Assembly: GCF_000482545.1 (NCBI RefSeq)
Contig: NZ_KI519454.1
Location: 2,144,954 to 2,208,953 of the forward strand
Direction of reading: 5' to 3'
Source of the DNA: Arthrobacter sp. 35W
GTDB lineage: Bacteria; Actinomycetota; Actinomycetes; Actinomycetales; Micrococcaceae
Length of the DNA: 64,000 nucleotides
Below are positions 2,210 through 27,057 of this stretch, piece by piece (the stretch's first letter is position 1; each line of letters begins with the position of its first letter). The translations under genes were made by a program, and so were the position numbers. The notes beneath the pieces were generated by a model, which was given only the letters and a program-made list of their open reading frames with translations, was not told the DNA's origin and made no database searches.

Positions 2210-2629
2210 TTAGAGCTGGCCCGTCTGCTCGCGCCAGGCCCGCTCCTTTTGGATCCATTCGTTGTCCTGCGGGAACTCGTCGATGGTCGGCACCCGGCGG
2301 ATCTCCGCCTTGCTGCCGGCCATGTACGGCATCCGCTTGGCCCACTCCACGGCCTCCTCCTTGGAGGCGACGTCCAGGATGTAGTAGCCACTGAACAGTT
2401 CCTTGGTCTCCCCGTAGGGGCCGTCCGTGACCACCGGGGTCTCACCGGTGAAGTCGACGACGACGCCCTCGCTCGGATCCTCGAGGCCCTCGGCCGCCAG
2501 CAGGACGCCGGCACGGATCAACTCGTCGTTGAACTTGCCCATCGCGTTCAGCAGCTCGCCGAAATCGACATCCTTGAAACTTGCCATCGACTCGTCGGTT
2601 GCCCGCATGATCAGCATGTACTTGGCCAT
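2210..2629 (-). CDS. YCII/DGPF-domain protein, partner of the ECF42 sigma factor
   Basis: A 139-residue protein of the YCII-related (DGPF) family, a ferredoxin-like fold of unclear catalytic role. The start at 2629 is chosen because MAKYMLIMRATDES is the conserved N-terminus and an AAGGAG site lies eight bases upstream; a longer open frame exists but lacks these signs. The family signature appears as TDGPYGETKELFSGYYILDV, so the DGPF motif is DGPY here. It precedes the sigma factor by six bases in the same operon, the arrangement seen for ECF42 systems. The partner proteins may sense or modify something that controls the sigma factor, but this is not established. Confidence 0.88.
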   Translation of the reverse strand: MAKYMLIMRATDESMASFKDVDFGELLNAMGKFNDELIRAGVLLAAEGLEDPSEGVVVDFTGETPVVTDGPYGETKELFSGYYILDVASKEEAVEWAKRMPYMAGSKAEIRRVPTIDEFPQDNEWIQKERAWREQTGQL

Positions 2630-2757
2630 CACAAACTCCTTGGTTCTGGAAGACCGCCCTTCGACCTTCTCATCCATAGGTCGAACGACGCCGGGGAAAA
2701 TCGACACAACGCGGAAAATCTTTTTGCAGAGGCCGTTTCAGCGAAACAGCGGCGGTG

Positions 2758-19279: not shown

Positions 19280-23012
<3,733 letters not shown>

Positions 23013-23074
23013 GCAGCCAAACCATCGGCGTGCCCTGGCGTGCACGGACCATGACGTCGGTTAGCGTGGCTGCA

Positions 23075-23239
23075 TGCGACGGCTTCCGGATGAGGTGGGC
23101 AGTGCCTTGAAAGCACTTCCCTCTCCGGGGCTACCCCGGGGCACGCAGTTCGACCAGCACCACGCGCCGTGGGCCCGCCCCTGCGCTCCGCGCAGCACGG
23201 GGCCCACACAGACAGATGGGTCATCCGGAAGCCGCCGCA
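23075..23239 (+). ncRNA. Candidate retron msr-msd non-coding RNA
   Basis: The terminal repeats a1 (23075-23093) and a2 (23221-23239) are complementary over 19 positions with a single mismatch, the hallmark of a retron RNA. Between them are three hairpins. One is AGTGC/GCACT at 23101-23117, another is CCGGGG-cta-CCCCGG at 23125-23139. The third is a long one at 23169-23207, with outer 8-bp arms and an inner CTGCGC-tcc-GCGCAG stem. The first two suit msr and the long one suits the msd that would be copied into DNA. The G directly after a1 (23094) is a candidate branching guanosine. It sits 46 bases before the reverse transcriptase, as in known retrons. Confidence 0.8.
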
Positions 23240-23285
23240 CCTTCCCCTGTGGGACGTCAAACACCCTCCCGGTCAGGGGCCGCAG

Positions 23286-24668
23286 ATGGCGGTAGCCACA
23301 ACAGGTGCAGCAACCCTGGCCCGCACGCCACGGACCTCGCCCGCTGACCTGGCCACGGCCCTGGCGCACGCCTTTCTGGGTGCGGAGTCCTGGTCCAAAG
23401 CGGCCCTGGTTGCCTCCGCAGCCGGATCACTTGGGGCCCGGCGCCGGTGGCTGCCGCCGCTGGCCGGCCACGTTCTGGCTGCGTACCACCGGCCCCCGGC
23501 GGACGCGCCTCGGGAGTTGGCCGCCGTCGTCGGCCAGTGCGACGCCTTCCGCGAGGCGCTCGCCAAATCTGCCCGGCAGCGCAAACCCATACGCCTGGCC
23601 CACCTGGTCCCAGTCGCCGGCAAGGCGCGGGACTCGGCTACGGACATTCCCCGGATCGACACCCTGGCGGAGCTGGCCGGACGACTGGAGCTCTCCACCG
23701 GTGAGTTGGAATGGTTCGCTGACCCTGGGCAGTGGAACCGCTCTGCCCGCACCCCACGGCTGCAGCACTACCGCTACGAATGGCGGAGCCGGCCCGGACG
23801 CGTTCCCCGTTTGCTGGAAATCCCTGGCACCAGGCTGCGCGCCATCCAACGCAGAATCCTCAGGGACCTGCTGCAGCCGATCCCCCTGCACGATGCGGCC
23901 CACGGGTTCGTCCCGGGGCGCAGCGCCATCACTGGCGCCGCCCGCCATACGGGAAACGAGGTGGTCATCAATCTGGATCTGTCCACCTTCTTCGCCAGGG
24001 TCACACCCGGGAAGATCTTCGGCGTGCTGCGGCAGGCGGGCTACGCCGAGGCTGTCGCCCACCGGCTCACCGGGCTGTGCACCCACGCCGTTCCGGCGCG
24101 CGTCCTGGCCGCCATGCCAGCGGGCGGGGACCCCGGCGAGCGCTTCGCCGTTCGGCAGGCGCTGGCCCGGGCGCACCTTCCCCAGGGCGCCCCGACCTCG
24201 CCTCTGCTGGCCAATCTGGCACTGCGCCGGTTGGACTCCAGGCTTGCCGGCTGGGCGGCCGCGGTGGGCGCCAGCTACACGCGCTATGCGGATGACCTGG
24301 CGTTCAGCGGCGGTCCGGATCTGGCCCGGGGCGCCGATGCCTTCATCCGCGGTGCGGCCCGGATCGTAGCCGACGAGGGCCACGACCTCAACCGCCGCAA
24401 GACCCGCGTCCGCGGCGCCGCCACGCGCCAAAGCGTCACGGGCGTCGTCGTCAACGCCCACACCAACATCTCCCGCGGCGACTACGACAGGATCAAGGCC
24501 ATCCTGCACCATTGCGTCCTCGATGGGCCCGGGGAGCAGAACCGCAGCGGGCACCCGGACTTCCAGGCGTATCTTCGCGGGCGGATCGCCTGGATCGAAA
24601 GCCTCAACGCTGCCCGCGGAGCGCAGCTGCGTGCGGAGTTTGACCGCATCCAGTGGCAGACCGCGTAA
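23286..24668 (+). CDS. Retron-type reverse transcriptase with N-terminal extension
   Basis: A 460-residue reverse transcriptase. Motifs in order: HGFVPGRS (206-213), a variant retron region X GAARH (217-221) where NAxxH is usual, DLSTFF (231-236, first catalytic Asp), LPQGAPTSP (298-306), YADD (334-337), NRRKT (369-373) and the retron region Y VTG (384-386, in VTGVVVN). About 150 residues precede the polymerase core, more than in the shortest retron enzymes. This extension is Ala/Arg-rich and helical, with no recognised domain. The ATG at 23286 is chosen because an earlier in-frame start would lie inside the RNA. With the RNA just upstream this forms a retron, a class of anti-phage systems. 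Confidence 0.9.
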   Translation: MAVATTGAATLARTPRTSPADLATALAHAFLGAESWSKAALVASAAGSLGARRRWLPPLAGHVLAAYHRPPADAPRELAAVVGQCDAFREALAKSARQRKPIRLAHLVPVAGKARDSATDIPRIDTLAELAGRLELSTGELEWFADPGQWNRSARTPRLQHYRYEWRSRPGRVPRLLEIPGTRLRAIQRRILRDLLQPIPLHDAAHGFVPGRSAITGAARHTGNEVVINLDLSTFFARVTPGKIFGVLRQAGYAEAVAHRLTGLCTHAVPARVLAAMPAGGDPGERFAVRQALARAHLPQGAPTSPLLANLALRRLDSRLAGWAAAVGASYTRYADDLAFSGGPDLARGADAFIRGAARIVADEGHDLNRRKTRVRGAATRQSVTGVVVNAHTNISRGDYDRIKAILHHCVLDGPGEQNRSGHPDFQAYLRGRIAWIESLNAARGAQLRAEFDRIQWQTA

Positions 24669-24872: not shown

Positions 24873-25304
24873 ATGTCGACAGTTCCCGATTCATGTGCCA
24901 CCGGCGGCACCAACCAGCCCGCCGGACAACGCCCCTGGTGCCTTGAGTGCCGCAGTGATGCCGCCCTCATCATTGAGTCGATAGTGTCCCGTGTCCCGCC
25001 GACACCAGGGATCGTGCACATCGAGTACACCTGTGCGGCCTGCGATTCCTACTACGCCCACCCGGCGGCAGTGGAGCAAATTGCCACCATACTCAACAAC
25101 ACCACCACGCCGTCGTCAGGCGTCCTTCAATTTGGCCACCATTACATCCATTGTGGCGAGCCGATGCAGGAGTTCAACGCCGAGCCGATCCGGATCAGGG
25201 CAGATTTCCCAGACAGTCACCACGGGCCTCGACTGACAGATGTCTCCCTGCCCACGCGGGTCCTGCGTTGCCAGTGCGGCTTCCGGATGTCCCTGCCCGG
25301 CTAG
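24873..25304 (+). CDS. Small zinc-ribbon-like protein
   Basis: A 143-residue hypothetical protein. Paired cysteines CLEC, CAAC and a C-terminal CQCG with HCG between them suggest one or two structural zinc sites. The middle (PGIVHIEYTCAACDSYYAHPAAVEQIATIL) looks like a conserved actinobacterial ribbon protein. The start at 24873 has GGAAAG upstream, and the longer open frame before it has poor composition. It lies 204 bases after the reverse transcriptase. A shared transcript is possible but not shown. Function unknown. Confidence 0.7.
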   Translation: MSTVPDSCATGGTNQPAGQRPWCLECRSDAALIIESIVSRVPPTPGIVHIEYTCAACDSYYAHPAAVEQIATILNNTTTPSSGVLQFGHHYIHCGEPMQEFNAEPIRIRADFPDSHHGPRLTDVSLPTRVLRCQCGFRMSLPG

Positions 25305-25778: not shown

Positions 25779-26840
25779 TCAGGCGTCGAAATGTGTCTGG
25801 ACGCCCTTGTTGTTGAGGTTGGTGACCAGTTCTTCGGCGAGATCGCGCAGCTTCTGGTTCCTGCTCGAGGACGCCTTGACCAGGAGGGCAAAGGCGTCAT
25901 CCTGCGAGCACCGCTGTTGGCCCATGATGACGCCGATGGCGATGTCGATGGCTGTTCTGGACTTCATGGCTTCCTGCAGATCCACGGCAGCCTGGTCCCG
26001 CGAGCCGATGCGCACCGCCAGCCGGAGGGCCTTTTGGGCGGAGGATGCGTAGTTCTCTGCCCGTTCGATGATTGCCGGTGTGAACATGGCTTTGACGGGG
26101 GAAAAGAAGTTCATGGCCGCCGCGGCGCCACCCTCAAGGGGCATCGGCACGGCAAGAACACTGTTGATTTCCAGGGCGTGCATCTCCCGGGCATACTCGG
26201 GCCAACGGGGGTCCGTCGCGGCGTCATCCATCACGACGGTGTGGCCGGTCTCCAGTGCCTCCAAACAGGGGCCCGCGCCATGCTTCTGCTGGATCCGGTC
26301 AAAGATGGTGGCACTTTCATCACTGCCCGCTCCGGTCAAGGGGCGGTGCCGCCGGTACAGCGTGATGGCGCATTGGACGGGCATCTGGCCCACCCCCGGG
26401 GCACTGGTGGCTGAATAGGCCGCCAGATCCTCAAGGAACTCCACGACGTCGGCGCTGTCCAACACCAGGTCCTGGAGCTCATCGGCCACGGAATACTCGG
26501 ATCCGGTGTCGGTGTCGATGCTGTCCATGTCCGCGGTCCCCTTGTCCTCGTTTAGCAGATCATCCAGCCAGCCGGCGCTGGATTGGGGAGGTTCGCTGTG
26601 CGGAACCCGGGCCGGCAGACCGCTCTCCATGGAATGTTCATTCATGGCAGCGGCTGCCATGTCGCATTCAAGGGCGGGGAGCATGTGCGCGCCGAAGACG
26701 TAGGCTTCGATTTCAAATCCACCGGCGCTGCCACCAAGCGCGAAATAGTGCAGCCAGAAGTCTGTGAGCCGCCATCGTGAATCTGACAGGGCATTTCTGA
26801 GCTCCCTCGTTTGAAAGCTGCCGTCGCCGTGGAGTGGCAT
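25779..26840 (-). CDS. GAF and ANTAR domain regulator
   Basis: A 353-residue signal-responsive RNA-binding protein. A GAF domain covers about residues 140-290 (ALEINSVLAVPMPLEGGAAAAMNFFS). An ANTAR domain covers about 295-350 (LQEAMKSRTAIDIAIGVIMGQQRCSQDDAFALLVKASSS), which in other proteins binds paired hairpins to prevent termination. The first 90 residues form an extra helical region. The start at 26840 (MPLHGDGSFQT) is chosen by composition with a GGGA site; the frame is open further upstream. Targets in this genome are unknown. It is convergent with the Pro-rich peptide gene. Confidence 0.85.
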   Translation of the reverse strand: MPLHGDGSFQTRELRNALSDSRWRLTDFWLHYFALGGSAGGFEIEAYVFGAHMLPALECDMAAAAMNEHSMESGLPARVPHSEPPQSSAGWLDDLLNEDKGTADMDSIDTDTGSEYSVADELQDLVLDSADVVEFLEDLAAYSATSAPGVGQMPVQCAITLYRRHRPLTGAGSDESATIFDRIQQKHGAGPCLEALETGHTVVMDDAATDPRWPEYAREMHALEINSVLAVPMPLEGGAAAAMNFFSPVKAMFTPAIIERAENYASSAQKALRLAVRIGSRDQAAVDLQEAMKSRTAIDIAIGVIMGQQRCSQDDAFALLVKASSSRNQKLRDLAEELVTNLNNKGVQTHFDA

Positions 26841-27057
26841 CTCTGGTCCCAAAGACTCCTCTGCCGGGCCGGAGTGCGCCATGCCCGGGTCATTGCCACG
26901 GGCCTCTGGCCAAGCCTGTTCCAATGCTACGCCGCATCTGCGCTCCCGGACCGGCCCGGTGCACTGTTGGTGCCGGCACCATTTGCGGCCCATTCCCCTT
27001 GCGCCGATGGAGGGACAGTTCTACCGTGGGATCTGAAGCCAGCAGCGCGTCACGGTC

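Follow-up and report, generated by a model that had tools for sequence, protein, structure and literature searches.

The window analysed here is a stretch of 64,000 nt from Arthrobacter sp. 35W (GCF_000482545.1, contig NZ_KI519454.1, positions 2,144,954-2,208,953, forward strand). It carries an msr-msd RNA (23075-23239) and, starting 46 nt past the end of its a2 arm, a reverse transcriptase (RT) gene (23286-24668). We take the two together to be a functional retron, with a probability of about 0.85; this figure covers the best explanation as a whole, whose least certain part, the function, is graded separately below. The features of the locus are as follows.

23062-23067, + strand: probable -10 promoter element (TAGCGT) of the ncRNA, from conservation of a TANNNT box
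23075-23093, + strand: a1 arm, the 5' end of the msr-msd RNA, from complementarity, shuffles and covariation
23094, + strand: candidate branching guanosine in a conserved GAG box, from conservation and position, with its priming role predicted
about 23095-23122, + strand: msr stem-loop 1, variable in sequence with a covarying stem (helix 2; about 23094-23124 in the minimum-energy fold)
23123-23141, + strand: msr stem-loop 2, 8-bp stem and 3-nt loop (CTCCGGGG-CTA-CCCCGGGG; helix 3)
23169-23207, + strand: msd hairpin, the putative DNA-copied part, from the fold and helices 4-6
23221-23239, + strand: a2 arm, from complementarity and covariation, with copying predicted to start at 23220
23286-24668, + strand: retron reverse transcriptase, 460 aa (ATG at 23286), from PADLOC, Pfam RVT_1 and Foldseek
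23286-23735, + strand: N-terminal helical domain and linker of the RT (residues 1-150), from alignment A6, the structure model, dN/dS and profile matches

The two arms that the original prediction had placed at the ends of the RNA are there, 19 nt long, 95% complementary and 127 nt apart. With no more than one mismatch allowed, arms in 22950-23300 reach 19 nt, against a maximum of 15 nt in 300 dinucleotide-preserving shuffles (0/300 as long). The hairpins predicted between the arms, including the msd-like one, appear both in the fold and in the consensus, and none of 200 shuffles was as stable as the fold of 23060-23285 (z = -3.84). The inner side of the a1/a2 stem bears the GAG box (23092-23094), invariant in 17/17 rows of alignment A1 and replaced by AAG in two Burkholderia loci; the branching guanosine of known retrons occupies the same position relative to a1 as G23094 (PMC6868368). 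Msr stem-loop 1 is paired in 91.2% of cells in a 17-locus alignment and 90.0% in a 44-locus alignment. For msr stem-loop 2 (consensus limits 23123-23141, minimum-energy fold 23125-23139) the corresponding values are 99.3% and 99.4%. RT-Eco1 depends on a core of the msr made up of an 8-bp stem and a three-base loop (PMC6868368), a form that stem-loop 2 matches, and by analogy with Ec86 this is probably the hairpin that the RT recognizes. Between it and the msd hairpin (98.5-98.9% of cells paired in the 44-locus alignment) there is weaker pairing, near 23140-23168. Upstream, 28 of 43 loci (the 43 include 17 of the home genus) have a TANNNT box at -14 or -15 relative to the first base of the RNA model, while any other position is occupied in at most two; a1 is therefore the probable start of the RNA. 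The msr-msd RNA brought no Rfam 15 family up to its threshold.

A lack of covariation of the a1/a2 pairing in homologous loci had been named beforehand as refuting the prediction. Covariation was found: the pairing is kept by compensatory change. Among 17 loci picked for recognizable arms (alignments A1 and A2), 23 of 41 consensus pairs are compensatory, and 96.3% of cells are paired, whereas shuffles reach 81.9% and sliding the partners leaves 39.5-46.4%. With 44 loci the figures become 31 of 41 pairs, and 96.9% versus 76.6% and 40.5-50.7%; this larger alignment was fitted to the structure and leans towards pairing, whereas the 17-locus covariation count was not so fitted. Since the 17 loci were chosen for their visible arms, a search of held-out loci is the fairer test. 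The covariance model built from A2 matched 25 of 27 sources, including 8/8 loci outside its training; the two unmatched sources (L005, L006) start inside the RT gene. It also matched Tsukamurella, Dietzia and two Burkholderia loci, all 18 loci of the host genus, and 44 of 45 sources at E 1e-5, the 45th (L204) being matched with filters off. The RNA lies on the RT strand in 45/45 rows, its distance to the beginning of the RT match being -31 to 404 nt. Applied to 297 genomes of the order, the RNA model found 14 carriers, the same 14 that came from the RT search among 396. A Methylobacterium relative (39%) yielded no such RNA in the RNA-model search, which counts against the best explanation. As judged from sequence comparison, the msr-msd RNA is a conserved family of about 165 nt, in which a covarying a1/a2 stem encloses two hairpins in the msr and one in the msd. 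Weak antisense matches to the model also occur, over about positions 94-132 (the msd region of the RNA loci), because the msd hairpin is nearly self-complementary and both strands look alike.

The RT contains LPQGAPTSP, YADD, NRRKT and VTG, and its region X reads GAARH, all as originally reported. Pfam finds RVT_1 in it. The top PADLOC profiles are RT_other (PDLC02949; 602 bits, residues 7-459) and RT_outgroup (PDLC03740; 560 bits, residues 20-457), both untyped, followed by type XIII (288 bits, the best typed profile) and III-A (226 bits); the RT is closest to none of the typed classes (types I-XIII). Five relatives (Burkholderia L042, Tsukamurella L044, Dietzia L045, L041 and L011) likewise score best against RT_other or RT_outgroup. 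Among 27 RTs of the clade, a count that includes one interrupted copy (L024), region X is GAxxH in 25, with Asn in none and His in all; region Y is VTG in 22, VTS in three, MTG in one and LAG in one. GAARH and the N-terminal extension had been read as hints of a poorly described group; the best profiles are untyped, and GAxxH is a trait of the clade. In a survey of 102 retron sequences the full NAXXH motif was present in 59% and its Asn in 62% (PMC4244168), and the region X Asn is likewise missing from Mx65 and Ec48 (PMC6868368), so the motif is not strictly defining. In the features that sequence can test, the locus is a retron (an RT of retron type in sequence and fold, an upstream msr-msd RNA with a1 and a2, VTG, and a guanosine next to a1), except for the Asn of region X, where NAxxH is not found. 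The RT gene is under purifying selection (dN/dS 0.09-0.17). In the interrupted copy (L024, the same locus as L037), an in-frame TAG lies about 232 codons into the matched RT, and the RNA upstream still scores 108 bits; the stop may reflect either a decaying copy or a sequencing error.

The RT had been said to have a long, unrecognized N-terminal extension. The extension is real, but it is not unrecognized: the PADLOC RT_other profile spans it. The structure model (pLDDT 82) shows residues 1-150 as a small bundle of helices with a linker, in which we found no recognized motif and, by structure search, no confident match to a solved fold. Profile comparison of the domain (hhalign) gave 94.9% for the Burkholderia relative and 96.6% for the Tsukamurella relative, the latter match being strongest in the last 30 residues. 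Purifying selection is seen here too (dN/dS 0.08-0.27 in eight of nine pairs, the ninth being saturated). Most clade members have the domain. A natural exception is L203 (in G707, 41% identical; about 2530-2730, minus strand), in which the RNA ends directly before the part that matches RT residues 85-88 onward; with the RNA ending just ahead of about residue 88, most of the N-terminal domain is missing there. This speaks against the domain being indispensable and lowers the reading of it as a built-in effector. Given that the domain has neither a recognized motif nor a confident fold match, an effector role for it is a guess.

We looked for partner genes beside the RTs of the clade. A rough GC3 rule served to choose neighbour ORFs, and 128 of the 131 picks of at least 100 aa, from 41 loci, were scanned; neighbours shorter than 100 aa were covered by clustering alone. 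No neighbour gene recurs widely in ORF clustering, where the widest clusters span just 6/25 loci and 6/18 genus loci. Among the 128 ORFs, PADLOC (E 1e-10) detected seven families, each in one or two, and no Pfam family (E 1e-8) occurred in more than five. Thus no adjacent effector is apparent in these sequences; an effector may lie at a distance, be a neighbour of less than 100 aa, or be fused to the RT as the N-terminal domain. Three genes close to the retron in the window may be mentioned: (i) 22206-23012 encodes a DMP19-like protein, of which PF14300 covers residues 170-265 only. (ii) 24873-25304 encodes a small cysteine-containing protein with no Pfam match, which has matches in 17/23 genus genomes, several of them multicopy. 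(iii) 25779-26993 (minus strand) encodes a GAF-ANTAR regulator, with similar ORFs close to the retrons of L012 and L028. At another locus a long perfect inverted repeat (L010:3657-3703) is found just ahead of the retron promoter region, and is perhaps the terminator of the upstream gene.

The retron is present in 18 of the 23 genomes of the host genus and absent from the other five. The RT is carried by 14/396 genomes of the order, and at E 1e-60 two queries found it in 3/296 and 5/396 genomes of the phylum (the window's own genome is counted at all three levels). Searches of phage and viral collections yielded just remote relatives. RT distances within the genus correlate with those of rpoB (rho 0.40; 0/2000 permutations as high), and three RT clades have flanking genes in common among their members (6/6, 4/5 and 3/3); the window's own flanks are common to none of the three. 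To explain where the retron is present, at least five changes are required on the rpoB tree, and one RT clade is rejected by rpoB (p-AU 0.011). This rejection, the five genus genomes without the retron and the interrupted L024 are further points against the best explanation. These patterns suggest that inheritance has been vertical in part, alongside losses, relocation and a degree of transfer or recombination.

Several known systems bear comparison. The PADLOC classes RT_other and RT_outgroup are like the window RT over nearly its full length, N-terminal extension included; these are class names without an effector type, and the match brings nothing on RNA or function. The best solved relative is Retron-Eco1 (Ec86; E 3.6e-31; Foldseek TM 0.75 and 0.77 by target), with which the window retron has its RNA order in common. 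Ec86 differs in its 320-residue chain, in having been solved with an effector (7v9x), and in region X, which is NAXXH (PMC6868368) as against GAARH. For the type XIII and III-A RTs, the next-best profiles, the best stretches run from residues 115 and 103 respectively, and in the clade described here, as a difference, no conserved partner gene was found alongside among the neighbours scanned. An extended RT N-terminus, as in the window RT, is described for the group of Mxa2 (Mx65), Mxa1 (Mx162), Sau1 (Sa163) and Nex2 (Ne144), and the myxobacterial Mx65/Mx162 group combines it with a GAGC or CAGC priming box; the GAGC of Mx65 is similar to the window GAG, in addition to the likeness in region X noted above (PMC6868368). 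Vertical inheritance has been proposed for Mx162 and Sa163 (PMC6868368), and for the first-found myxobacterial retrons no effector is described in the passages cited. By these reported features the window retron resembles the myxobacterial retrons with extended N-termini, above all Mx65, more than any other described kind; they belong to another phylum, and the likeness is judged on described features.

How the retron would work can be outlined from known retrons. The RNA would be transcribed from its own promoter, beginning at a1, and the RT would bind the 8-bp/3-nt msr hairpin and prime from the 2'-OH of G23094. Copying would run leftward from 23220 through the msd hairpin and stop somewhere in about 23146-23168. 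The product would be an msDNA that stays attached to the msr. Its length, roughly 50-75 nt, is an estimate, as the sequence does not show where DNA copying ends. With an order common to known retrons, the locus should work as they do, and it fits no effector-defined type.

An account without any retron would have a group II intron, DGR or DRT reverse transcriptase lying by chance downstream of a hairpin. The missing Asn of region X leans that way, as does the score of the NCBIfam retron St85 model, which at 162 bits falls short of its cut-off of 235. The same 162 bits stand far above the scores for group II intron (52) and Drt2 (36); PADLOC agrees with the PDB, where the nearest solved sequences are retron RTs, and with Foldseek, where the best 18 matches to a model of the full RT (pLDDT 89) all come from retron complexes; and the msr-msd covaries. 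We regard this account as scarcely credible, and the group II intron and DGR classes, named in the original prediction as the placements to fear, were rejected on profile scores, PDB sequence and Foldseek matches, used in place of a tree against all retron types. What stands is a retron in an actinobacterium, a covarying msr-msd RNA with a retron-class RT, in a group without an assigned type. Such a retron might be decayed or selfish, with no host function, and one interrupted copy and five genus genomes without the retron fit that idea; the purifying selection on both the RT and its N-terminal domain, the compensatory evolution of the RNA and the retention of the RNA in 18/18 genus copies make it improbable.

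The remaining accounts concern what a working retron does. The upstream DMP19-like gene has a place in its favour, on the same strand and ending 62 nt before a1, together with its PF14300 match; it is found in 1/23 genus genomes (its own) against 18/23 for the retron, and has no PADLOC match, so that we consider it very unlikely to be the effector. A better candidate is an ordinary tripartite abortive-infection retron whose toxin, encoded elsewhere or by a small missed neighbour, is brought in by the msDNA particle. Where the function of a retron is known, the system consists of an RT, an RNA and an effector that is toxic (PMC12548924). Scans of neighbours would miss a partner that is distant or very small. 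Speaking against this account, no adjacent partner recurs across the 41 scanned loci, and the known effectors of typed retrons adjoin the RT or are fused to it. Our own preference, held tentatively and at well under even odds, is for a two-component cell surveillance particle of RT and msDNA, in which the N-terminal domain would be a built-in effector or a docking site for a host factor and there is no toxin next door. This self-contained particle and the distant or overlooked effector stand close to even; the latter is an account of function only, its retron part being common to the best explanation. More doubtful still is the wider proposal that the lineage is complete as RNA plus RT, with the N-terminal domain replacing the toxin or the msDNA particle having a standing cellular role, as near-core equipment of the genus that does not move among defence islands; we lowered our estimate for it because L203 lacks most of the N-terminal domain.

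Parts of this picture are already known. Some retrons have no clear association with a nearby effector (PMC8867640); for Retron-Bth1, on an extrachromosomal element in a Bacillus, no effector was obvious (PMC12548924); surveys list putative retrons in Actinobacteria (PMC6868368); and PADLOC profiles catch the window RT. The passages on these effector-less or putative actinobacterial retrons give no RNA family or lineage to which the window retron could be matched. The present analysis contributes the RNA family and the evidence that it covaries, the finding that no neighbour recurs, and the distribution across the genus. No description of the msr-msd RNA family was found among the literature matches listed, and priority in print is not established.

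Retrons of known function act through an effector, and the lineage is comparative material on the effector question. It offers 45 loci with a defined RNA, an N-terminal domain that most of these loci carry, at least one being a natural exception, and 18 carriers plus five non-carriers within one genus. The RNA is compact and might also be used, as a source from actinobacteria, for producing DNA inside cells. With no recognized partner toxin alongside, and with most species of the host genus being carriers, the role of such retrons would be testable there.
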